Program-made: the position numbers and the translations under genes
The notes under the pieces: generated by a model
Seen by the model: only the letters and a program-made list of their open reading frames with translations
Told to the model about the DNA's origin: nothing
Database searches by the model: none
Assembly: GCA_022842935.1 (NCBI GenBank)
Contig: JALHOP010000010.1
Location: 170,144-234,143 of the forward strand
Source of the DNA: Myxococcota bacterium
GTDB taxonomy: Bacteria > Myxococcota > XYA12-FULL-58-9 > JALHOP01
Length of the DNA: 64,000 bases
Reading direction: 5' to 3'
Shown here: piece by piece, positions 14,465 to 26,683 of the stretch
Layout: each line of letters opens with the position of its first letter
Position numbering within the stretch: the first letter of the stretch is position 1

Positions 14465-15325
14465 GTGAGCATGGGATGGCTTGAGCGGGCCCTGATCTGC
14501 ATGGTCGCGGCAACGGCGGCATGCAGTACGACCGACCCGACACTCGAAAACGCAAACGAGCTCGAGGGCATTCAACGTTGCGACGCCGATGGAGACTGCG
14601 GCGGACGGACCTGCTGTGATGGGCGTTGCGAAGACGTTTCTCTATCGATGCGTGCCTGTGGCGCATGTGGCAACACCTGCGCGGCACCCACCTATTGCAC
14701 GGGGTCGCGTTGCGCGCCCTTCGCCTTCGAGGCCATTTGCAGCAACGACGAGCTCCGCATCGTGCATCGCGCCGCAAAGCTCGTCGACGGCGAAAACGAT
14801 GACCCCGCCCCCGATAACCAGGCCGCTGACGATCTTGCGGTCGCGCTAGCGGACCTCTGCAACAACACCCTGGCAACGGCCACCGTCATCGGCGAGGACG
14901 ACGTTCTCGAGGGTGCGAACGCAGGCCCGCTCGCCACAGGCCGCGGCACGGGCCTCATCGTCGCCGGCGGGCGCGTTTTCAGCGGGGTCATCGACTATCT
15001 CGACAACGCCGACGTAACGCCAGTCGAGCTGGTCGTTGGAGGTGACGGCGATAGCTTCCAGCTGGTCGTGCGCTCGCAGAGGCGGGTCATCGTGACGGAC
15101 CGGCTAACGGCGCTCTCGCCGAGCCGGGACTACATCATCGGCCAAGCCATCTACGACGACACGAGCGGCACCCAGGTCTTGAACGTCTACGGCATCTTCC
15201 GGGGAGGCACGAGCATGGGGGCCATATATTTCGCCGAGCTCGCCGCCCAATCGAGCGCCGTGGGCGAACGGTGGTTCGTTGCCAAAGCCGAGAACGGCGC
15301 GGTGACTAGGCTCGCGGGCGAGTGA
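14465..15325 (+). CDS. Cys-rich lipoprotein of unknown function
   Basis: A 286-aa predicted lipoprotein (MVAATAACST lipobox). The N-terminal third has a cysteine-dense module, CDADGDCGGRTCCDGRCED and CGACGNTC...YCTGSRC, a disulfide-rich pattern common in myxobacterial envelope lipoproteins. The remaining 200 residues have regular beta-type alternation without a family I recognise. The GTG start has GGGGGAG seven bases upstream; an ATG lies two codons on. It precedes the degenerate ATPase gene, whose start overlaps its stop. Confidence 0.8.
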   Translation: MSMGWLERALICMVAATAACSTTDPTLENANELEGIQRCDADGDCGGRTCCDGRCEDVSLSMRACGACGNTCAAPTYCTGSRCAPFAFEAICSNDELRIVHRAAKLVDGENDDPAPDNQAADDLAVALADLCNNTLATATVIGEDDVLEGANAGPLATGRGTGLIVAGGRVFSGVIDYLDNADVTPVELVVGGDGDSFQLVVRSQRRVIVTDRLTALSPSRDYIIGQAIYDDTSGTQVLNVYGIFRGGTSMGAIYFAELAAQSSAVGERWFVAKAENGAVTRLAGE

Positions 15326-16002
15326 TGCGTTACAATCACGCGGCACAGGTAGTCCGCCCCGTCACCACCATGCCGACGAACGATAGCAAAGCCCTCCTCG
15401 AGCTGCGTCACGGAACGCGTGACTTCGCCCTCGCGCCCTTGCCGGCCATCGAGATCCAACACGCGTGGTTCAAGGTTGCCCGCTCGCGCGCTTGGAATAC
15501 TCTCGCCATCGTCCCGGTCAATGACACGGTAAGCGGCCTCACGCTCGCGCAAGGTATGGGTCAGATGGCCGGGCAGGAGCCTGGAGCACGCGTGCTGGTG
15601 GTCGACGCAAGCATTCGCGGCTGTGAGCCCGGTGGACGCCGCACGAGTCCACTGGACGCTCCAGCGGAGCTCGATGACCTCGGGTCCATTCTTTCCGAAG
15701 GCATCCACGGCCGGTTCGACTTCATGGATTTTTCCCTGTTGCCGGCAGACGACGCCGAGCGCGCGCTTGCGCTCGGGCCACAGCTCCTCGACTACGCTTC
15801 GGGTGAGGGGAGCCGCTACTCGACCGTGATCATGGCGGTCGACTCACCCCTAACGCAAACGCGGTCGATCCCCGCGGCGCGTGCCGCCGACGCCGTCATC
15901 TTGTGCCTGGGCCTGCACGACACGACGTTCAGCGAGTGTGGTGAGGTCATCGAGATGGTCGGTCGCGAGCACATTCTGGGCAGCATCGTCGTCAGGCCTT
16001 GA
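15322..16002 (+). CDS. Degenerate CpsD/Wze-like (BY-kinase-fold) ATPase
   Basis: A 226-aa protein whose layout follows the bacterial tyrosine-kinase/CpsD ATPase fold but lacks its catalytic lysine. After AWFKVARSRAWNTLAIVPV, the Walker A position reads NDTVSGLT where active kinases have GEGKST. Walker A' survives as RVLVVDASIRG, and the Walker B position as YSTVIMAVDSP, followed by the usual ARAADAVILCL. There is no C-terminal tyrosine cluster. It is probably a pseudo-ATPase acting with the polysaccharide copolymerase, whose EpsV-like gene here also lacks a kinase domain. A start at 15370 (MPTNDSK) is also possible; GTG at 15322 overlaps the preceding stop. Confidence 0.75.
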   Translation: MMRYNHAAQVVRPVTTMPTNDSKALLELRHGTRDFALAPLPAIEIQHAWFKVARSRAWNTLAIVPVNDTVSGLTLAQGMGQMAGQEPGARVLVVDASIRGCEPGGRRTSPLDAPAELDDLGSILSEGIHGRFDFMDFSLLPADDAERALALGPQLLDYASGEGSRYSTVIMAVDSPLTQTRSIPAARAADAVILCLGLHDTTFSECGEVIEMVGREHILGSIVVRP

Positions 16003-16025: not shown

Positions 16026-16784
16026 TCAACGCCCGCGCACGAGCTGCCGCAGGAAGATCCCCGCGATGGCGCGGTCCCGTACGAGATAGCGATGCGCGAG
16101 CCGCTTCGGGTCCTTTAGCAAACGATACGTCCACTCGAGCCCAACGCGTGACATCCAGGCGGGGGCTCGCGACTGGACGCCAGCGATGAAATCGAGGCTC
16201 GCGCCGATGCCGAGGAGCACCGCCGGGGCGAGCTCACGTGCCGCCATGCGCATGAAGAGCTCCTGTTTGGGACAACCAAGCGCGACGAAGACGAGATGGG
16301 GCTTGGCCGCCTTTGCCGCATCGAGGACTTTCTGCAGGACCTGCGGGTCGCGCTCGAAGCCGAGAGGTGGCGCGTCGTGGCCGCAGATCTGCAGCGTCGG
16401 CAGCTGCGTGAGCAAGGTCGCCGACGCGGCTTCAGCGACTCCTGGCGCGCCACCCAGAAAGTAGACGCGGAGGCCGTCGCGCGCTGCTCGCTCAATGAGC
16501 GGCAACATGATGTCCGAGCCCGAAACCTTCTCCGGGATGCGTGTGCGTAGGAGCTTCGCCATCCACAAAAGCGGCATCCCATCGGCGAGCGACAGTGACG
16601 CATCGGCGTACGCAAGCCGTAGGCCTTCGTCGGTCTCGGCGAGAACGATGTGGTCGACGTTGGGCGTGACCACGTAGCCACCATGACCGTCGCGCACGAG
16701 GTCGACGATGTAGTCGAGGGCTTCGCGGAATGTGACCGCGTCCGCGTGGATCGAGCCGAAACGCACCTTAGTGAGTGAGCGCAT
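16026..16784 (-). CDS. epsA: WecG/TagA/CpsF-family glycosyltransferase
   Basis: A 252-aa GT26 enzyme that adds a sugar, often N-acetylmannosamine or its uronate, to a lipid-linked precursor. Family motifs are TPNVDHIVLAETDEG, SLADGMPLLWMAK, YFLGGAPGVAEAA and VALGCPKQELFM. The frame is open to 16889, but that would overlap the next gene; ATG at 16784 gives the normal family length and lies 17 bases after that gene's stop. By family and setting it resembles M. xanthus EpsA; orthology is inferred. Confidence 0.9.
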   Translation of the reverse strand: MRSLTKVRFGSIHADAVTFREALDYIVDLVRDGHGGYVVTPNVDHIVLAETDEGLRLAYADASLSLADGMPLLWMAKLLRTRIPEKVSGSDIMLPLIERAARDGLRVYFLGGAPGVAEAASATLLTQLPTLQICGHDAPPLGFERDPQVLQKVLDAAKAAKPHLVFVALGCPKQELFMRMAARELAPAVLLGIGASLDFIAGVQSRAPAWMSRVGLEWTYRLLKDPKRLAHRYLVRDRAIAGIFLRQLVRGR

Positions 16785-16800
16785 CGACCGAGAAAGTAAC

Positions 16801-18213
16801 CTAGAACAAGCCGGCGAACGACGATGACTTGTAGAGCTCGAGCGCTTCCGGCGGGGGACGCAGATGCGTTGGTTTCTCGCCGATACCAACTAGCCACTCA
16901 TAGACGGCACGCGTTTTGTCGCGCTTGGCTGGTAGCGAGAATTCGTTGCCAATGCGGGCACGCGCCGCCTCTCCGAGCTTGCGGAGCTCGTCGCCGCTCA
17001 TCTCGACGAGCTTGGTGAGCGTGTCACGCAGCCCAGCGATGACATCTTCGCGGGTGCCGAGCGGCACCCGGAAGCCGCAGCTCGCGTCAACGATCTCATG
17101 GGGTCCGCCATAGCCGACAACAACCGGAATGAGGCCCAGCATCATCGCCTCCATGACGGCGCCACCGCCAAACTCGCGAATGCTCGGGAAGCCAAGGACC
17201 GCCGATTGCATCAGGCGTTCCTGCAGTTCGTGGTGCGGGACCCACCCATCCATGCGGACCGCGTGCATGACGCCCTCGCGCTGGACGAGATCGAGCAGCA
17301 TGGGCTTTTCGGGGCCGTCGCCGATGAGGTCGATGACGACCCGCCCCGCCTTCAAAAGTGGCGCCGCCGCTTTGATGAGCATCTCGATGCCCTTGCAGGC
17401 GACCATACGGCCGACGAAGGCGACCTTGAGGGGGCGCGCGGCATACGCATCAGTGGTCCGCGAGAACTGGCGATCGTCGATGGCGTTTTCCGGGAGATAA
17501 AACATCTTGTCGTCGTAGACGCGCGGCATCTCCCGCCACGCTGCGGCCGAGCCGACCAAAATGGCGGATGCGTGCTCCCGGACAGAGCGGTAATACGGCA
17601 GCAACCGGTAGGCCCCGCGTAGCCGTCCTAGCCACTCGCCTTCACGCTTGCGCTCTTGTTCGAAGCCCTTGGGCCACGGCACCCCGCCGTTGACCGGACC
17701 AAGCACGAAGGGGATCGCGAGATCCGCCGCACGCTTTGCGACGAAGCTCGGAACACCTGGACTTACCGGGGTAATTCGGTGAACGAGGTCGAAGCTACCC
17801 GCCTCGAGCTCGGGCAGAAAGCGGGCCCACGTTTCGCTCTCGAACTGGTAGTAGCAGGGCACGCTCATCGCCGTTTGGGTGATGCCGTTCATCGCCCCGT
17901 TGCTCGCGATCCTCTTCGACACGCCCCAGACGAAATTCTCGATCGACGTCGGGCCGATGAAGGTCACGTCACTCTTGGGAAAGGTGCTTCGCTCGATATC
18001 TTCCCGGTTGCGGTAGTGGGTCGCGACATGGACGTCCGCGAACTGAGCGACGGCCTCGATGTGACGCCAGCCGACCATCGGGACGCTAATCCAATTGGGA
18101 TTGGCCATCTCGGCGAGCAAAAGCACGCGCAGACGCCGGCGCTTTACCGTCCGCGGCGTGTTATGAGAGAGCGATACCGGAGGGTCGCCGGCCAACGAAT
18201 TGTGTGAGCCCAT
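16801..18213 (-). CDS. Glycosyltransferase family 4
   Basis: A 470-aa GT-B glycosyltransferase. The C-terminal donor-binding half shows KVAFVGRMVACKGIEMLIKA, VIDLIGDGPEK, and the GT4 acid-loop region LGFPSIREFGGGAVMEAMM where the Glu in VMEAMM contacts the nucleotide sugar. The N-terminal half has HRITPVSPGVPSF and LGPVNGGVPWP, a pattern seen in exopolysaccharide GT4 enzymes. ATG at 18213 (MGSHNS) is preferred over 18267. It is upstream of, and transcribed with, the WecG-type gene. Confidence 0.88.
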   Translation of the reverse strand: MGSHNSLAGDPPVSLSHNTPRTVKRRRLRVLLLAEMANPNWISVPMVGWRHIEAVAQFADVHVATHYRNREDIERSTFPKSDVTFIGPTSIENFVWGVSKRIASNGAMNGITQTAMSVPCYYQFESETWARFLPELEAGSFDLVHRITPVSPGVPSFVAKRAADLAIPFVLGPVNGGVPWPKGFEQERKREGEWLGRLRGAYRLLPYYRSVREHASAILVGSAAAWREMPRVYDDKMFYLPENAIDDRQFSRTTDAYAARPLKVAFVGRMVACKGIEMLIKAAAPLLKAGRVVIDLIGDGPEKPMLLDLVQREGVMHAVRMDGWVPHHELQERLMQSAVLGFPSIREFGGGAVMEAMMLGLIPVVVGYGGPHEIVDASCGFRVPLGTREDVIAGLRDTLTKLVEMSGDELRKLGEAARARIGNEFSLPAKRDKTRAVYEWLVGIGEKPTHLRPPPEALELYKSSSFAGLF

Positions 18214-18551: not shown

Positions 18552-19943
18552 ATGAACGCGAAGTTCGACAAGCTCACTCCAGGCATCGGCGCGAAGCTCA
18601 ATCTCTTCTTCGATTGTTGCTTCACGGTGCTGACCCTTCTCGCGGCCCTACGCACCCAAGAGATTCTCCAAACCCGCGTCTTCGTGTTGCTGGCAGTCGC
18701 GCTGCTCGCGTGGCTATGCACCGCGGTTTTCCTGCGCCTGTACTCCGCCTGTACGCCCCGCAGCCGCTGGGACAATATGGTTCTCACCGGCATCGCGGCC
18801 ATCACCGTCACCGCGTCGACAGCGATCGTCGACTGGATGCTCTACGGCGACAAGAGTGACGCGGTCTCGTTCCTCACATTCGCCGTCGTGCTGGCGGCGG
18901 CGAGCTGCCTCTGCCGCCTGACCTTCCTCTCGGCGTTCAGCCGTATCGATGAGCCGCTCGAGGACGTGCTCATCGTCGGGACCGGGGCGCTCGGCGTCTC
19001 CACGTACTATCGATTGAACGAAGGCAACAGCGGCCGTCGCGTCGTCGGCTTTCTTCGCTTCAAGAGCGACCCGCCTCTCCCCTACGGCATTCGCGTGCCG
19101 GTCAGCGGCACAGTCGATTCCCTGCTCGATACGTTACAGCAGCGTCCAGTCAACGAGGTCTACATCGCCGGCCGCGTCTTGTCCCAAGGCGGCGAGATGC
19201 AAGAGGTCGCGACCTCGTGCGAGCGTATCGGGATGCCGTTCGCCGTGCCGGTTCACTCGCTGCGTTACGAACGCGCGGCGCTGCTGTCGACATCGCGCAA
19301 CACGGACGGCTACCTCCACTATCTTTCGACCCGAACGGCGCCTGTTCAATACGCAGTGAAGCGCCTCATCGACATCGCGGCCTCGAGCGTCGCGCTCGTT
19401 ATGCTGTCGCCGCTGCTCATCGGCGTGGCGGCGGTCATCAAGATCACCTCGAAGGGCCCGGTCTTCTTCCGCCAGACGCGTGTCGGCCTGCACGGCGCAC
19501 ACTTCAGTCTCCTCAAGTTCCGGTCGATGGTCGTCGACGCGGAGGCCTTGAAAGAGAAGCTGATGAAGATGAACGAGCAGACTGGTCCGGTCTTCAAGAT
19601 GAAGCACGACCCACGCATCACGCCGATCGGCCGCTTCATCCGCAAGTACTCGATCGACGAGCTCCCACAGCTCATCAATATCCTCCGTGGCGATATGACC
19701 ATCGTCGGACCGCGTCCGGCGCTCCCGTCCGAAGTCGCGCAGTACAAGGTTTGGCAGCGTCGCCGCCTCTCGGTACGCCCCGGCCTTACGTGCTACTGGC
19801 AGGTCGGCGGCCGCAACGCCATCGGCTTCGAAGAGTGGATGCGCCTCGACCTGCGCTACGTCGACCACTGGAGCCTCTCGGTTGACATGCGGCTTATTTT
19901 GCAGACATTCCCGGTGGTGCTCGCCGGTCGTGGCGCGAGCTGA
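18552..19943 (+). CDS. epsZ: Polyprenyl-phosphate hexose-1-phosphate transferase (initiating enzyme, EpsZ-like)
   Basis: A 463-aa WbaP/WcaJ-type enzyme that starts repeat-unit synthesis by moving a sugar phosphate onto undecaprenyl phosphate. Four N-terminal helices are followed by a Rossmann-like CoA-binding-type domain (DVLIVGTGALGVSTYYRL) and a fifth helix (ASSVALVMLSPLLIGVAAV). The catalytic domain then has KFRSM, DELPQLINILRGDM and GPRPALPSEV. The length is typical. It heads the plus-strand eps gene run in the same position as epsZ in M. xanthus. Confidence 0.93.
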   Translation: MNAKFDKLTPGIGAKLNLFFDCCFTVLTLLAALRTQEILQTRVFVLLAVALLAWLCTAVFLRLYSACTPRSRWDNMVLTGIAAITVTASTAIVDWMLYGDKSDAVSFLTFAVVLAAASCLCRLTFLSAFSRIDEPLEDVLIVGTGALGVSTYYRLNEGNSGRRVVGFLRFKSDPPLPYGIRVPVSGTVDSLLDTLQQRPVNEVYIAGRVLSQGGEMQEVATSCERIGMPFAVPVHSLRYERAALLSTSRNTDGYLHYLSTRTAPVQYAVKRLIDIAASSVALVMLSPLLIGVAAVIKITSKGPVFFRQTRVGLHGAHFSLLKFRSMVVDAEALKEKLMKMNEQTGPVFKMKHDPRITPIGRFIRKYSIDELPQLINILRGDMTIVGPRPALPSEVAQYKVWQRRRLSVRPGLTCYWQVGGRNAIGFEEWMRLDLRYVDHWSLSVDMRLILQTFPVVLAGRGAS

Positions 19944-19978: not shown

Positions 19979-21502
19979 GTGAGCCCGTCTTCCACGGTGG
20001 CTCACGAGACGACCAGGGCACTGCGCAACGCCCTCGTTTTGACCGGCTCGCTCGTCGCAACGCTCGGCGTCGCCATCGCCGTCCGCTTCTGGATGCCGCG
20101 CTATCTCGGCCCCGATCTCTTCGGCCAGGTCTACTTCGCCGAGTCGTTTACCGCCGCCACCGTGGTTTTCCTGAACTTCGGCATCGATGTGTACATCAGC
20201 CGCGAGATCGCGACGCGTCTCGAGCACGCCTCCGATTTCATGGGCGGGATCATCATGCTGCGCGCGGCCGCCACCGTGGTGGTCTTCGTCGCCATGGCGG
20301 TCATCCTCTTTCTAATGGGGAAGAGCGCGTTGGAGTGGCAGCTCGTCGCCATTTTCGGCGTTGGCCAGTTGTTCTTCACCTTCAACAACACCTTACAAGC
20401 CATCCTCAACGCCCGCGGCGAGGTCCGAGAGCTCGCCCTCGTCAATGTTGCGAGCAAGATCATATGGGGCGCCTTGGTCGTCGGCAGCCTCGCTCTTCAT
20501 GGCGCCCTACTCCTCGTCGCCGCCGCCTTCCTCGTGACCGAGGCGGGCAAGATGCTGGCGCTGATCGGCACCTGCCGAAAGTACGTCAAGCTCGAGCTAC
20601 ACTGGCAAACCAAGACCGCTTTTGCGGTCATCGCCGCCTCGCTACCCTTTTACGTGAACTCCCTGGCCCACGACATTTATGCCCGCGTCGACTCCATCAT
20701 GTTGTCGTGGATGATCAGCGATGCGGAAACGGCCTGGTACGGCGCCGCTGTCAACATCAACCTCCTCGCGCTGCTCGTCTTGCCGATCATGAACGCTGTG
20801 CTCATGCCGATGAGCTCCCGCGTCATCAAGGAGTCGCCCGAGGCGCTCGACGCCGTCATGCGCGGTACCCTGCGTATTGTCCTCGTGTTGTCCGTGCCGC
20901 TCACCCTGATGCTGGTGCTGCACGCGCACGCGGTGGTGCTCCTGCTCTTCGGGCCCGAATACGCAGCCTCGGCACGCACCCTGCAGATCCTCGCTCCAGT
21001 CATCCCACTTTCTTACGTCTGCGTGGTCTCGGCGTCGCACCTCGTGCAGCTCGGTAAGGTTTGGCGCGTCACGCGCGTGGCCGTCATCGGGCTCATCGTT
21101 CACCCGTTGCTCAACTTCGTGACGATCCCGAACGGCGGCGATTGGTTCGGCGCCGGCGGAGCCGGAATGGGCGCCGCTGCGGCATCGCTAACGAGCGAGG
21201 CGATGGTCGCCACGTTGTTCTTCCTCGCCCTTGGAAAAGCAGGTCCTGACCGAACGTTCGGCTTCAACATGGCGAAGCTTGCGCTGGTGTGCGCGGCGGT
21301 GACCGGAGTGCATGTTCTCTTGCCCCTTTTTGCACCCGACCCAACCCATGCGATGAGCTTGTGGCGGGTCCCTGTCGAGCTCGTGGTGTATGTCGGCTTG
21401 GGAACCGTGCTCGGGGCCATTCCCTTGCGCGAGATGCTGCAGCATCTTTCGAGTGCATTGTCGCGACGACGTGGAGCCACCGCTCCACACGCAGCAGAAT
21501 AG
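19979..21502 (+). CDS. wzx: Wzx-type polysaccharide repeat-unit flippase
   Basis: A 507-aa multi-helix MOP-superfamily transporter that flips lipid-linked repeat units across the inner membrane. It has the family start LGPDLFGQVYFAESFT, a central FYVNSLAHDIYARVDSIML and about 12-14 helices. It follows epsZ by about 35 bases (GTG start), and its stop lies against the ribosome site of the OPX gene, so the genes are cotranscribed. Confidence 0.92.
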   Translation: MSPSSTVAHETTRALRNALVLTGSLVATLGVAIAVRFWMPRYLGPDLFGQVYFAESFTAATVVFLNFGIDVYISREIATRLEHASDFMGGIIMLRAAATVVVFVAMAVILFLMGKSALEWQLVAIFGVGQLFFTFNNTLQAILNARGEVRELALVNVASKIIWGALVVGSLALHGALLLVAAAFLVTEAGKMLALIGTCRKYVKLELHWQTKTAFAVIAASLPFYVNSLAHDIYARVDSIMLSWMISDAETAWYGAAVNINLLALLVLPIMNAVLMPMSSRVIKESPEALDAVMRGTLRIVLVLSVPLTLMLVLHAHAVVLLLFGPEYAASARTLQILAPVIPLSYVCVVSASHLVQLGKVWRVTRVAVIGLIVHPLLNFVTIPNGGDWFGAGGAGMGAAAASLTSEAMVATLFFLALGKAGPDRTFGFNMAKLALVCAAVTGVHVLLPLFAPDPTHAMSLWRVPVELVVYVGLGTVLGAIPLREMLQHLSSALSRRRGATAPHAAE

Positions 21503-21509
21503 GATCGCC

Positions 21510-22094
21510 ATGAAGCGTTGGCTCTCGGTTTGCGTACTGTTCTTGGGCTGCTCCGCTTGCGCCGCGGGCAAATACGTCTGGGCAGAGCAAATGCCGCTCG
21601 AGCGTCATGAGCCCGAGACGTACGCCATTCGGCCAGGCGACCGCCTCTCGGTGCTCGTCTGGAACCAGCCCCAGCTCTCGGGACCGGTGCGCGTGCGTGC
21701 CGACGGCGTCGCCACGGTGCCCCTTGTTGGTGATCTTGCGGTCTCTGGGCTGACCGCTCCTGACGCTGCGGTTCAAATCAAGCGTCGGCTGCAGGGTCTG
21801 GTCGTCGAGCCCAACGTCACAGTGACGGTCGATGAGGCGCGCGAGGTGACCGTTTCGGTCATCGGTGAAGTGCGGGCCGCGGGCGCCTACCCGGTGCGCG
21901 CCGGCGAGACCGTCTTGCACATCCTCGCACGCGCGGGTGGGCTCACGGAGTTCGCGGACACGAGCTCTATTTTCGTGGTCCGGGGGTCGGGAGACGCAAC
22001 ACGCGTCCGCTTCAGGTATCGCGATCTCGTGGCCGGTCAGAGTCGCTCGCTCGCCTTTGCCTTGCGCGACGGTGACATCATCGTCGTCGAATAG
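21510..22094 (+). CDS. epsY: Short outer-membrane polysaccharide export protein (OPX, EpsY-like)
   Basis: A 194-aa lipoprotein (cysteines at 14 and 17 in the lipobox region) with a PES domain (about 37-115: YAIRPGDRLSVLVWNQPQLSG, RADGVATVPLVGDL) and one SLBB domain (about 118-170: VIGEVRAAGAYPVRAGETVL). It lacks the extra domains and C-terminal amphipathic helix with which Wza crosses the outer membrane. Short OPX proteins of this kind pair with a separate beta-barrel in M. xanthus, and such a gene follows directly. ATG at 21510 has AGGA six bases upstream. Confidence 0.92.
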   Translation: MKRWLSVCVLFLGCSACAAGKYVWAEQMPLERHEPETYAIRPGDRLSVLVWNQPQLSGPVRVRADGVATVPLVGDLAVSGLTAPDAAVQIKRRLQGLVVEPNVTVTVDEAREVTVSVIGEVRAAGAYPVRAGETVLHILARAGGLTEFADTSSIFVVRGSGDATRVRFRYRDLVAGQSRSLAFALRDGDIIVVE

Positions 22095-22138: not shown

Positions 22139-23410
22139 ATGCTGAGCTGGGCTCTGGTGACCGCGCTGCAACTCACCTCGGTGGAGCTGCAGATTGGCCT
22201 ACGCAATGAGAACCGCGTCGGCTTCGTCCCGCTAGTCACCACCATCAACGGCGTGCAGGGCGAAAGCCTGGGCACGGCGCGCACCATCTCGGGCGAGCTG
22301 TCGCCAACCATCGCTTTGCGCTTACTGGGTAGCCGCAGCGAGCTGCGCTTGTCGTACACGCCGCAGTTTCTGCTGACCAATGCCTTCGGCAACACCAACA
22401 CGCTGACCCTTCACAACGCGCAGCTCACCGCCGGCTACCGCCTGACCCGCTTCACGACCGTCTACGCCAACGGCAGCGTAACCGCGGGGCAAATCGATTT
22501 CTACCGCGCCCGTCGCCTCCTAAACCCCGAACAAGCGACCATCTTCACCATCCCCGAGAACCGCATTTTGAGCTACGCGTCCTCGCAGGCGTTCGTCGGC
22601 TTCACGCAGCAACTTGGTCGCTTCACGCGCGTTGACGTTCAGGGGCTCGCCGGCCATACGGGCCCCGCCCCCGGCCAGCAGAGTTTTCAGTACTTTCGCA
22701 GACAGGACTTCGTCGGTGGCAGCGTTCGGGTCAGCGAACAGCTCGACCTACGCAACAGCGTCGCTGCCGAAGCCGAATACCGCGAGCTGTGGTTCGAGGG
22801 TGGGCCCTACTACAACTCCGTGACCCCGGCGGTGATCTACGACTATCGGTCTGACCGCCAGGTCACCGTCAACCTCCGCGCCGGTATGCAGTTCTCAGGG
22901 ACCCAATACGGCTCGCGCCAAATTCCCGAGTGGATTGTCGGGGGGGGCCTCTTGCCTCCACGCACGGGTACCGAAGCGCGCGCCATGCCGGTGTTCGGTC
23001 TGGTCGTTGGCGGACTAACCTGGCGCGGGGCTGGGTATCTCTACTCCTCGCGCCTATCGCTCAACCTGCTTCCCTTTTACGACCCCGTGCAGGGTGTACT
23101 GCAGCAGCGCATTGCCTTCGGCATCGGTAACAACGTCGTCTTGTCCCGCCGCTACTCGGCCCGCATCGAGCTGAGCGTTTTCATCCCTGGCGACTTCGAG
23201 CTCACCACCACCAACCAGCCCTACATCGACCAAGACGTCTTCGCGATCCTGAACCCGGTCCTCATCCGCACCCTCTCCCGGACAGCGCAGCTCGAGGCCG
23301 GAGCGTTGATTACCCAGCGACTGGAGGACTACACAGAGGTCGTGGGCACATGGAATCGGCCGGAAGTCATCCTGTACCTCGCCTTCAGCGGCACGACCAC
23401 GGTATGGTGA
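22139..23410 (+). CDS. epsX: Outer-membrane beta-barrel of the EPS exporter (EpsX-like)
   Basis: A 423-aa protein of alternating polar/hydrophobic segments rich in Tyr, Arg, Gln and Asn, with many strands such as RFTTVYANGSVTAGQIDFYRA and VTVNLRAGMQFSG and the C-terminus LYLAFSGTTTVW ending in an aromatic residue. This is the pattern of a large integral barrel. Directly after a short OPX gene, it fits the composite OPX/beta-barrel translocon described for M. xanthus EpsY/EpsX. The N-terminus is only weakly signal-like (MLSWALVTALQLTS), so the start may be misplaced. Confidence 0.8.
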   Translation: MLSWALVTALQLTSVELQIGLRNENRVGFVPLVTTINGVQGESLGTARTISGELSPTIALRLLGSRSELRLSYTPQFLLTNAFGNTNTLTLHNAQLTAGYRLTRFTTVYANGSVTAGQIDFYRARRLLNPEQATIFTIPENRILSYASSQAFVGFTQQLGRFTRVDVQGLAGHTGPAPGQQSFQYFRRQDFVGGSVRVSEQLDLRNSVAAEAEYRELWFEGGPYYNSVTPAVIYDYRSDRQVTVNLRAGMQFSGTQYGSRQIPEWIVGGGLLPPRTGTEARAMPVFGLVVGGLTWRGAGYLYSSRLSLNLLPFYDPVQGVLQQRIAFGIGNNVVLSRRYSARIELSVFIPGDFELTTTNQPYIDQDVFAILNPVLIRTLSRTAQLEAGALITQRLEDYTEVVGTWNRPEVILYLAFSGTTTVW

Positions 23411-23413
23411 GCC

Positions 23414-23596
23414 TTGGAGAAGCTGCTCCTCATCTCGGTGTTGCTAGTCACGTTCGTGATTCCGATCGTCACGTCCTACGATGCGGACCCGAAACGTGGC
23501 TTACGTCGATGTGTCGCGGGCTTTTTGATCTTCATGGGGCTATGGGTTTTCGCGCTACTCTTCATTTACCCACGCCTACTTGCGATGTCGTCGTGA
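23414..23596 (+). CDS. Small two-helix membrane protein in the eps operon
   Basis: A 60-aa protein starting with TTG three bases after the epsX stop. It has two hydrophobic segments, LLLISVLLVTFVIPIV and CVAGFLIFMGLWVFALLFIY, separated by a charged loop DADPKRGLRR. It matches no family I know. Its position between the beta-barrel and receiver genes, with tight spacing on both sides, suggests a real gene whose product may act with the export or chain-length machinery. Confidence 0.7.
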   Translation: MEKLLLISVLLVTFVIPIVTSYDADPKRGLRRCVAGFLIFMGLWVFALLFIYPRLLAMSS

Positions 23597-23621
23597 TACG
23601 GGGAATCAGAGACTTGTCATT

Positions 23622-24011
23622 ATGATGCCTGCCCAGCCACAGAGAAGCCCCCTGGTCATGGTCGCCGAGGACGATATCGACGCCCGTCGCGTCATCGCCG
23701 GCTACTTGAAAACCCTCTCCGTACGCGTGGTCGAAGTCGACGACGGTGTTACGGCCCTCGAGTCCATCGAGAAAGAAATCCCCGAGCTCCTCATCCTCGA
23801 TCTGAACTTGCCGTCCATGAGCGGCTTCGAGCTTTGCGAGCGAATCCGCGAGAAAGAGACGACCGCGAAGGTCCCGGTGCTCGTCGTCACCGGCCGCAAC
23901 AGCCTCGAAGATCACGCGCGAGCCCGCGAGGTCGGCGTCACCAAATACATTTCCAAGCCCTTCAAGAAGAAAGAATTCGTGGAGGCGGTGAGGACGCTGC
24001 TCAAACGGTGA
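23622..24011 (+). CDS. epsW: Stand-alone response-regulator receiver (EpsW-like)
   Basis: A 129-aa CheY-like receiver with no output domain. The acidic pair D17/D18 (VAEDD), phospho-acceptor D60 (LLILDLNLP), T90 (VVTG) and K112 (YISKPFKK) are all present, so it should be phosphorylatable. Position between the barrel and PCP genes matches epsW in M. xanthus. It probably tunes EPS assembly by binding a partner protein. ATG at 23622 is immediately followed by another ATG; either can be the start. Confidence 0.92.
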   Translation: MMPAQPQRSPLVMVAEDDIDARRVIAGYLKTLSVRVVEVDDGVTALESIEKEIPELLILDLNLPSMSGFELCERIREKETTAKVPVLVVTGRNSLEDHARAREVGVTKYISKPFKKKEFVEAVRTLLKR

Positions 24012-24038: not shown

Positions 24039-25502
24039 GTGGCGCAGCGCCCATCCTATTCCAAGACCGGCGATCTCGAATTCAACCTGGGTAGCGTGAA
24101 GCTCCTGCTTGGCTTCGCGCGACGCTCCATCAAGAGGCATCGCAAGCTGGCGCTCGCAGTCTTCTCCGGGGTCATGGTGCTTACGCTCATGGCTCTGTAC
24201 TTCATGCCGCCGCTGTACCGGGTCCAGTCGCGCATCCTGACGCACACCAACTACATCATCCCGGCGCTCGCGACCCCCGGACGATCGATCCCGTGGCAGG
24301 CACAGTCGGCCGTCGATGGCGCGGTCGAGGTCATCAGGTCGCGCGAGAACCTGCGCGGCATCATCGAAGACGCAGACCTCGCCGGCACGTGGGACACGAC
24401 GCGTACCCCAATCGGGCGCGTCCTCGACAAGATCCGCACCACTATTTTCGGCGAGCTGTCGTACGAGGACAAGCAGCAAGCCCTGATCAGCATCCTCGAT
24501 GACCGCTTCAGCGCTTTCATCGAAGACGAGAAGATCGTGGTCATGACCCTCGACTGGCACGACCCAGGCATGGCCGTGCGCATTCTTGACACTGCTCAGA
24601 AGCGATTCCTCGATGGCCGCAAGCACCGCGAACTCTCCGAGATCAACGAGACCGTGAAGATCCTCGAAAGGCAGGTCACGGAAGGGCAGCCCATGCTCGA
24701 TCGCGCCGCTGACCGTATCCGCGAAGTGGCAATGCGCACACCCGGGGTGCGCGTCGTGCAGCGGGAGAACCCCGAGAGGCCCCGCCCCGCACCAGCGGGA
24801 CGCAGCGGCATCGACAGCGCAGCGCAGCGCGAGCTCGAGGAAGACCTGCGCGTCAAGCGCAACGCCATCGCCGAGCTCGAGCGCGACTACCGCACCCGCC
24901 TGCAAGGCGCCCAAGACCACCTGAACAAGCTGCGTGGGACACTCGGCCCGAACCACCCCGACGTCATCAACGCCAACCGCAACCTCGATCTGCAATCACG
25001 ACCGCCTGAAGAGCTGGCTGGCCTGCGCACCGAAGAAGCGCGTATGGCGATGCAGCTCAACCGTATGTTGATCGCCGCAGGCGCGACGCCTCAAGCAGCG
25101 GCCGCCGCCGCTTCACGGCCGATCGTCACCATGTCGAACGACAAGCAGCCAAACCCCGAGCTCGACCAAGCGATGAGCGAATACGAGCGTGTCGAGCGCA
25201 GTCAGAGTGAGATCTTCCGTCGTCTCGAAGACGCGCGCATCGAGGTGCAGACGGCCACCGCTGGCTTCACGTACCGCTATCTCATCACGCAGCCACCGGT
25301 GTTCCCGCGTAAGCCGGTGAAGCCAAAGAAGCCCATGATCGTCATGTCGGGCTTCATCGCCGCTATCTTTTTGGGAATGGCGCTCGCCATCGCCGCGGAC
25401 ATCGTCTCGGGGCGTATCGTCGAGCCGTGGCAGGTGCCGCGCTTCGTGGGCGTGCCTCTCCTGGGTGAGATCCGCGAGCCGCCGCAGCGCCTACGTTCAT
25501 GA
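24039..25502 (+). CDS. epsV: Polysaccharide copolymerase (Wzz/GumC type, EpsV-like) without kinase domain
   Basis: A 487-aa inner-membrane chain-length protein: helix 1 at about 37-58 (LALAVFSGVMVLTLMALYF), a large periplasmic coiled-coil domain (about 60-430) with LGPNHPDVINANRN typical of GumC-like proteins, and helix 2 (MIVMSGFIAAIFLGMALAIAADIV) after the Pro/Lys motif PRKPVKPKKP. It ends shortly after helix 2, so there is no fused tyrosine-kinase domain. GTG start with AAGGAG upstream. It overlaps epsU by 4 bases. It would bridge to the short OPX in the periplasm. Confidence 0.92.
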   Translation: MAQRPSYSKTGDLEFNLGSVKLLLGFARRSIKRHRKLALAVFSGVMVLTLMALYFMPPLYRVQSRILTHTNYIIPALATPGRSIPWQAQSAVDGAVEVIRSRENLRGIIEDADLAGTWDTTRTPIGRVLDKIRTTIFGELSYEDKQQALISILDDRFSAFIEDEKIVVMTLDWHDPGMAVRILDTAQKRFLDGRKHRELSEINETVKILERQVTEGQPMLDRAADRIREVAMRTPGVRVVQRENPERPRPAPAGRSGIDSAAQRELEEDLRVKRNAIAELERDYRTRLQGAQDHLNKLRGTLGPNHPDVINANRNLDLQSRPPEELAGLRTEEARMAMQLNRMLIAAGATPQAAAAAASRPIVTMSNDKQPNPELDQAMSEYERVERSQSEIFRRLEDARIEVQTATAGFTYRYLITQPPVFPRKPVKPKKPMIVMSGFIAAIFLGMALAIAADIVSGRIVEPWQVPRFVGVPLLGEIREPPQRLRS

Positions 25503-26683
25503 CCATCGCCATATGGGCATCGCTTGCCGTCGCGCTGTTTTTCGTGCCGCTGCTCGTCTACCTGGGCATCCTGTCTGTTTTAGCGAGCGCCCCCCGTAGG
25601 CACGTCTATGGAGGAGCCAGCACCCGCTTCGTAGTCGTCGTGCCCGCGCACAATGAGGAGACAGGTATCGCCGCTACCGTGCAGAGCGCGCTCACGGTCG
25701 ACTACCCGCCCGAGCTGCGCCGGGTGCTGGTGGTCGCGGACAACTGCTCCGACGCCACCGCTGCACGAGCACGCGAGGCAGGCGCCCTCGTACTCACCCG
25801 CGAGAACAAGGAGCTGCGCGGCAAGGGCTACGCGCTCGAGCTCGCCTTCGCACACGTCGCTCGCGAGAAGCTGGGCGAGGCGGTGGTCGTCATTGACGCC
25901 GACAGCCTCGCCTCCCCCAATCTCCTGCGCTCGTTCGACGCTCTGCTAGCCGCCGGCGAGCAGGCCGCTCAAGCGGAGTACGGCGTGCGCAATCCGCAGG
26001 CCTCGTGGCGTACGCGCCTGATGACCGTGGCCCTGGCCATGTTTCATCGCACCCGCTCGCTGGGCCGCGAGCGCTTGAGCCTTTCGTGCGGTCTGCGGGG
26101 TAACGGCATGTGCTTCACCTTGCCGCTCCTCGCAAAGGTGCCGCACGCGGCCTACGGACTCGTCGAGGACGTCGAATACGGCATCTTGCTGGGCAAAAAC
26201 GGAGTGCGCGTTGCATATGCCACCGACGCGTGGGTGCTGGGCGAAATGGTCTCAGGCGGGAAAGCCGCCGTGAGCCAGCGCAAGCGCTGGGAGGGAGGCC
26301 GCGCCCAGATGCGCGCCATGGTGCGGCCGCTGCTCGCGGCGGCCCTCACGCGACGCTCGGCGATGCTCCTCGATCTTGCGATGGATATCATCGTGCCGCC
26401 GCTTGCGACCCTCGGCATCGTGCTATTCGTGTTCACCTTGCTCGAGGCCGCCCTCTGGGCGCTCTCGGGCTACCCTGCGCCGGGGATGTATCTGTGGCTA
26501 GCTGGTTGGGCTGCCCTGTCGATCTACATCGCGCGCGGGATGCAGCACTCGGGGCTAGGCTTTGGCGCGGTCACCGCCCTCGCCTATGCTCCCGTCTACG
26601 TGCTCTGGAAGCTCACGTTCGCGCGGGTCGGAAAGAGCGAAAAGAGCTGGGTGCGGACGGCGCGTGAAGAGCGGTCCGACTAA
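25499..26683 (+). CDS. epsU: Membrane glycosyltransferase family 2 (EpsU-like)
   Basis: A 394-aa processive-type GT2. An N-terminal helix is followed by FVVVVPAHNEETGIAATV, VVADNCSDATAARAREAG, the DxD motif in VVIDADSL, the acceptor-site EDVEYG, and QRKRWEGGR (the QxxRW motif), then two or three C-terminal helices. This layout resembles cellulose/hyaluronan synthase-like enzymes. It ends the plus-strand eps run and is translationally coupled to epsV. Confidence 0.92.
   Translation: MTIAIWASLAVALFFVPLLVYLGILSVLASAPRRHVYGGASTRFVVVVPAHNEETGIAATVQSALTVDYPPELRRVLVVADNCSDATAARAREAGALVLTRENKELRGKGYALELAFAHVAREKLGEAVVVIDADSLASPNLLRSFDALLAAGEQAAQAEYGVRNPQASWRTRLMTVALAMFHRTRSLGRERLSLSCGLRGNGMCFTLPLLAKVPHAAYGLVEDVEYGILLGKNGVRVAYATDAWVLGEMVSGGKAAVSQRKRWEGGRAQMRAMVRPLLAAALTRRSAMLLDLAMDIIVPPLATLGIVLFVFTLLEAALWALSGYPAPGMYLWLAGWAALSIYIARGMQHSGLGFGAVTALAYAPVYVLWKLTFARVGKSEKSWVRTAREERSD

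Follow-up and report, generated by a model that had tools for sequence, protein, structure and literature searches.

The window analysed here, a stretch of 64,000 nucleotides from a Myxococcota bacterium, raises the question of how a protein with the layout of a BY-kinase (BYK) may serve polysaccharide production when its catalytic motifs are degenerate and the PCP encoded in the same locus carries no kinase domain. Two answers had been offered in a preliminary description, namely a catalytically dead partner that acts by binding alone, and an ATPase that has been repurposed.

The pseudokinase gene and its locus

The features of the locus are collected in Table 1. The preliminary description had placed the gene next to a PCP without a kinase domain; the absence of that domain is borne out, EpsV ending 24 residues after the start of WQV, and both genes do lie in the same contiguous eps locus, but "next to" is loose because the pseudokinase gene is situated about 8 kb from epsV, beside an epsA/wecG-like gene.

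Table 1. Features of the eps locus and of the pseudokinase gene, as positions in the window.
Feature	Position	Strand	Remarks
EcpK-type BY pseudokinase gene	15322..16002	+	226 aa counted from GTG; frame open
Helix before beta-1, residues 44-58, EIQHAWFKVARSRAW	15451..15495	+	two family-invariant Trp (W49, W58)
Degenerate P-loop, residues 65-80, PVNDTVSGLTLAQGMG	15514..15561	+	no Lys or Arg
Walker A' remnant VLVVDASIRG, residues 91-100	15592..15621	+	DxSxR, not DxDxR
Region from Walker A' to Walker B, at BYK length	15622..15825	+	D95 to D174 = 79 residues
Walker B-like VIMAVDSP, residues 169-176	15826..15849	+	Asp-Ser-Pro kept (D174-S175-P176)
EpsA-like WecG/TagA/CpsF glycosyltransferase	16026..16889	-	PF03808, E 3.7e-57; adjoins pseudokinase gene, convergent
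EpsZ-like initiating phosphoglycosyl transferase	18552..19943	+	NF041877, E 3.5e-163
Wzx-type flippase	19979..21502	+	PF01943, E 3.4e-23
EpsY-like OPX export protein	21390..22094	+	NF041843, E 2.2e-47; start likely inside ORF
EpsX position, beta-barrel candidate	22139..23410	+	by position between epsY and epsW only; zero Pfam matches
EpsW-like single-domain response regulator	23580..24011	+	PF00072, E 1e-26; position
EpsV-like PCP-2 without kinase domain, proposed partner	24039..25502	+	NF041864 (EpsV), E 1.2e-74; GNVR
EpsV cytoplasmic tail WQVPRFVGVPLLGEIREPPQRLRS, proposed docking segment	25428..25499	+	WQ[VIL] in 75 of 81 distinct tails
EpsU-like GT2 glycosyltransferase	25499..26683	+	NF041865, E 8.6e-136

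The start of the pseudokinase is more likely to be ATG 15325 or ATG 15370 than GTG 15322. The former is in frame and shares nucleotides with the stop codon (TGA) of ORF 14465-15325 upstream, so that the two genes may be translationally coupled through this TGA/ATG overlap, and the latter is close to where orthologues begin, the conserved sequence starting from about residue 40. The upstream ORF itself (+ strand) gave a weak STIG1-like Cys-rich match.

The motifs reported earlier, including the Walker A' and Walker B-like sequences, are all present in the protein. NDTVSGLT, described as a P-loop without lysine, corresponds to residues 67-74, within a longer stretch equally devoid of Arg. The Walker A' remnant reads D95-A-S97-I-R99, the second Asp having become Ser. 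The claimed loss of the tyrosine tail holds as well: the only Tyr residues are Y4, Y158 and Y166, none lies beyond 166, and no C-terminal Tyr cluster is found in the window protein, whose C-terminus is the last beta-strand. Alignment with BYKs places the helix at residues 44-58 on the site that carries EX2RX2R in active kinases (ECCRTLR in the BYK of the same genome).

Fold and descent from BY-kinases

Searched as a single sequence against Pfam, NCBIfam and PDB, the pseudokinase returned no family matches, and a single-protein scan of the genome contigs with it returned no relatives; a carboxylesterase found by phmmer (E 0.32) was put down to chance. Structure prediction, which the preliminary description had named as a check, yielded a BYK fold rather than one outside the BYK/SIMIBI group. 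The AlphaFold2 model, built on a 25-member family alignment, has a pLDDT of 81 (core > 90), and the best 50 PDB matches obtained with Foldseek are all BYK domains (Wzc, VpsO, CapAB, Etk, BceF), the best with an E of 3.7e-7. A structure search of BFVD gave nothing significant. Profile-profile comparison of the family with Myxococcota BYKs gave an E of 3.4e-12 across the whole domain, and a profile made from pseudokinases only also recovers true GxGK/R BYKs, with E of about 1e-7 to 1e-10. Separately, the BYK-like sequences L134, L135, L136, L104 and L105 carry Arg in place of the P-loop Lys (GEGRT, GDGRS).

Loss of catalytic motifs across the family

The catalytic columns were surveyed in 94 family members, aligned together with seven reference BYKs. 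Not one of the 94 has the P-loop Lys (two partial sequences have a gap at that column), and no orthologue with an intact GKS/T, the finding that would have spoken against a dead kinase, is among them. Tyr is absent from the last 30 residues in 90 of the 94 members, and Asp is kept at the Walker B position in 66. One EcpK relative, in genome G104 (L092:2698-3129, + strand), has a GKS tripeptide in its degenerate P-loop (PAQEGKSILP), but this tripeptide stands about three residues ahead of its place in a canonical P-loop and the GxxxxGK pattern is missing, so it is not counted as an intact P-loop.

Counted from the Asp of Walker A' to that of Walker B, the distance is 79 residues in the window protein, compared with mostly 79-82 in BYKs (one has 100) and exactly 31 in 62 relatives, that is, in most. 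Several parts of the BYK domain, alpha6, alpha7, beta4 and beta5 among them, are missing from the published EcpK (PMC12004946). The window protein and those of genomes G006 and G027 thus retain a segment that most relatives have lost; this long form is probably nearer to the ancestral kinase, a placement that comes from the spacing and not from a rooted tree.

Orthology to EcpK and comparison with known systems

Homologues that align along the core are found in 112 of 195 genomes of the same phylum, so the observation of a pseudokinase is beyond chance; L024, a match from the first phylum search, is a trypsin-like protein that matched by chance and was dropped. The window protein shares 31-34% identity with the deep-branching homologues of G006 and G027 and 23-28% with others, and orthologues without catalytic motifs are conserved in 39 genera, with W49, W58, G214 and G220 invariant in the family. 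The preliminary description had also suggested a survey of eps loci, and in most of the loci read the relatives do sit with EpsA, EpsZ, EpsY, EpsW, EpsV and EpsU, the EpsA-like gene being a neighbour of the pseudokinase gene there too.

In L009, the Myxococcus-type member, an ATG lies 14 codons downstream of a TTG and positions 52, 59 and 131 are Glu, the same start layout and residues (E52/E59/E131) as published for EcpK (MXAN_7447; PMC12004946). With L009 thus matched to EcpK, the window protein is a diverged EcpK orthologue. The three Glu, which line the pockets for EpsV in the published model, correspond to T73, Q80 and D200, of which D200 alone is acidic. Among these Glu only E59 is reported as well conserved (PMC12004946), so acidic pockets are a feature derived from a model and not a strictly defining one, and as T73 and Q80 are not acidic, the details of EpsV docking may differ in the window protein.

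Under its former name WzeX, MXAN_7447 had been presented as a stand-alone kinase (PMC7310880); in 2025 it was published as EcpK, a BY pseudokinase of M. xanthus that stabilises EpsV and binds to it (PMC12004946). The window pair resembles EcpK and EpsV (MXAN_7421) in belonging to an eps locus and in having a BYK fold without catalytic motifs or a Tyr tail, and both EpsV proteins are kinase-less PCP-2 proteins with a short cytoplasmic tail at the end. The window protein differs from EcpK, with which it is about 27-28% identical, in the spacing of its Walker motifs (79 against 31 residues) and in keeping parts of Walker A' and B. It is also without two of the three Glu of the pockets and without a C-terminal helix rich in Lys and Arg. 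An insertion divides the eps genes in M. xanthus, whereas those of the window form one contiguous set. HfsB and HfsA of the Caulobacter crescentus holdfast offer a parallel, HfsB being a stand-alone BY pseudokinase that is essential for, and stabilises, a kinase-less PCP-2 (PMC12004946); they belong, however, to another pathway and lineage, and are likened here by description only. CapB/CapA and Wzc are similar to the window protein in fold and profile but are catalytically active and have GxGKS/T, DxDxR and a tail rich in Tyr, features that are absent or broken in the window protein.

Co-occurrence with EpsV

Co-occurrence with EpsV across the phylum is nearly complete: among the 195 genomes, 110 have both EpsV and the EcpK family, 8 have EpsV alone, 2 have EcpK alone and 75 have neither. 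Counted per genus, 38 have both, 2 EpsV alone, 1 EcpK alone and 49 neither, such that both are present in 38 of the 41 genera with either. These are raw counts, not corrected for phylogeny, and G008, G123, G124 and G192 were excluded from them, their match to the family profile coming only through true BYKs. Genome G006 (L031, L032, L172, L173), of the same order, has two EcpK-type genes and two EpsV genes, so copy numbers match there.

One of the two EcpK-only genomes, G194, has an incomplete assembly. At the locus of the other, G125 (L180), remnants of wzx and epsU are directly joined and ecpK is retained; the stretch from epsY to epsV appears to have been deleted. Among the EpsV-only genomes, G091, G103, G137 and G151 have the conserved tail and assemblies of 800-1240 contigs, from which EcpK may simply be missing.

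How the pseudokinase may act

The ecpK gene of M. xanthus is needed for EPS, EcpK and EpsV are mutually stabilising at the post-transcriptional level and interact in a two-hybrid test, and the published model places the EpsV tail in the EcpK groove, with EcpK proposed as a phosphorylation-independent scaffold (PMC12004946). Since EcpK was published as a pseudokinase that binds and stabilises EpsV, the idea of a partner that has no catalysis and works through binding alone is right and already known, being for EcpK in part demonstrated and in part proposed (Blocher et al., 2025, PMC12004946). It is very probable that the window protein is a diverged EcpK of this kind, which binds no nucleotide in the usual way and, by binding the EpsV tail, stabilises EpsV and governs ring assembly without tyrosine phosphorylation. 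As envisaged here, the protein would not be expected to phosphorylate; it would most likely bind EpsV by the short tail on the cytoplasmic side, which would complete the alpha1-beta1 portion of the kinase-like domain, and binding and release would in turn stabilise EpsV and control ring assembly, and hence polymer production. Alongside the orthology, fold, loss of catalytic motifs, shared locus, co-occurrence and matching tail motif observed here, the EcpK/EpsV pair presumably works in the window organism as it does in M. xanthus, and a cycle of assembly and disassembly of the EpsV ring, proposed in PMC12004946 also, may be part of this.

A repurposed ATPase would bind nucleotide through a non-canonical loop (D95, R99, D174-S175-P176) and act on the polymerase as a MinD/ParA-like switch. 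The window protein does keep the first Walker A' Asp, the Arg and the Walker B Asp-Ser-Pro, and the Walker B Asp is widespread in the family, as counted above; yet the P-loop Lys is missing from every member, with a loop sequence that varies freely, the Asp residues are lost in family members of other genera, and the top structural matches are all BYKs and not MinD or ParA. With its nucleotide-binding loop gone, this second suggestion of the preliminary description finds no support and is considered improbable.

Less probable again is a partnership with a true BYK of the same genome, for example as the non-catalytic subunit of a mixed ring. The genome does encode one Wzc-like BYK with a Tyr-rich tail (G000:C7), but it is on another contig and fused to its own PCP, and M. 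xanthus btkA mutants have wild-type EPS and btkB mutants a slight defect or none (PMC12004946). An active stand-alone BYK beside EpsV was not found, this PCP-fused kinase being the only match in the genome above the BYK family cut-off. That the gene is merely a decaying, non-functional kinase would account for the loss of catalytic motifs, but the frame is open, the motif-less orthologues keep the same invariant Trp and Gly residues across their 39 genera, and EPS in M. xanthus depends on the orthologue (PMC12004946), leaving decay the least probable of these explanations.

The EpsV tail, a natural fusion and an FHA-bearing relative

The set of 81 distinct C-terminal tails holds 75 with WQ[VIL], one with WQA and five without the motif, the last being EpsV of G095, G098, G101 and G102 and one kinase-linked PCP. 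The four EpsV homologues without a WQ tail (L175 in G095, L185 in G098, L183 in G101, L184 in G102) come from genomes without a detected EcpK, representing about two independent losses, and a search for an intact BYK beside these tail-less EpsV genes found none. The corresponding Trp is absent from the tails of the kinase-linked PCPs of the same phylum that were compared.

Tentatively, and with a chance slightly short of even, the E-x-W-Q-[V/I] tail of EpsV could be a docking motif specific to pseudokinase partners, one that stands in for the E/D-rich stretch found in kinase-linked PCPs, packs on the invariant W49/W58 and is lost whenever the pseudokinase is lost with it. As for the window protein, it would represent the ancestral stand-alone kinase in a form that has undergone little reduction, and a change from control by phosphorylation to control by binding could be traced within one phylum. 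The docking model of the EcpK paper emphasises two C-terminal Arg, and no mention of the tail Trp was found in its main text (PMC12004946). These residues, the EpsV WQ motif and EcpK W49/W58, offer concrete points at which to test phosphorylation-free control of the polymerase.

Pseudokinase and EpsV are also found joined. Genome G150 (C22, L109:6851-8872, - strand) has a single frame of 674 codons in which EpsV (residues 38-503) is followed by an EcpK-type pseudokinase (523-673), whose domain has a BYK fold that Foldseek groups with Wzc. The predicted fold of the fusion, made with pseudokinase rows only, leaves the tail unplaced (pLDDT about 35) and has no bearing on docking. A separate EcpK gene lies 2 kb from the fusion.

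The kind of protein is already known, the EcpK-type pseudokinase having been published for M. xanthus. New here are the form with kinase-length spacing, the WQ[V/I/L/A] motif of the EpsV tail, which is lost jointly with EcpK, the fusion to EpsV and the relative with an FHA domain; no mention of the spacing, the motif, a fusion or an FHA relative was found in the main text of the EcpK paper (PMC12004946). These data carry EcpK beyond the myxobacteria in which it has been studied and into deep branches of the phylum, and the co-occurrence, the joint loss with the tail and the natural fusion lend the view of pseudokinase and EpsV as one unit a phylogenomic support that does not depend on the M. 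xanthus experiments.

The FHA-bearing relative (L003:1498-2547, - strand; genome G027, C2, at about 135.7-136.7 kb) is a pseudokinase of the EcpK type that carries an FHA domain at its N-terminus (PF00498, E 4.1e-11), encoded about 17 kb from an epsZ-wzx-epsY-epsW-epsV-epsU cluster on the same contig, and suggests phosphothreonine-dependent control in the G027 lineage.
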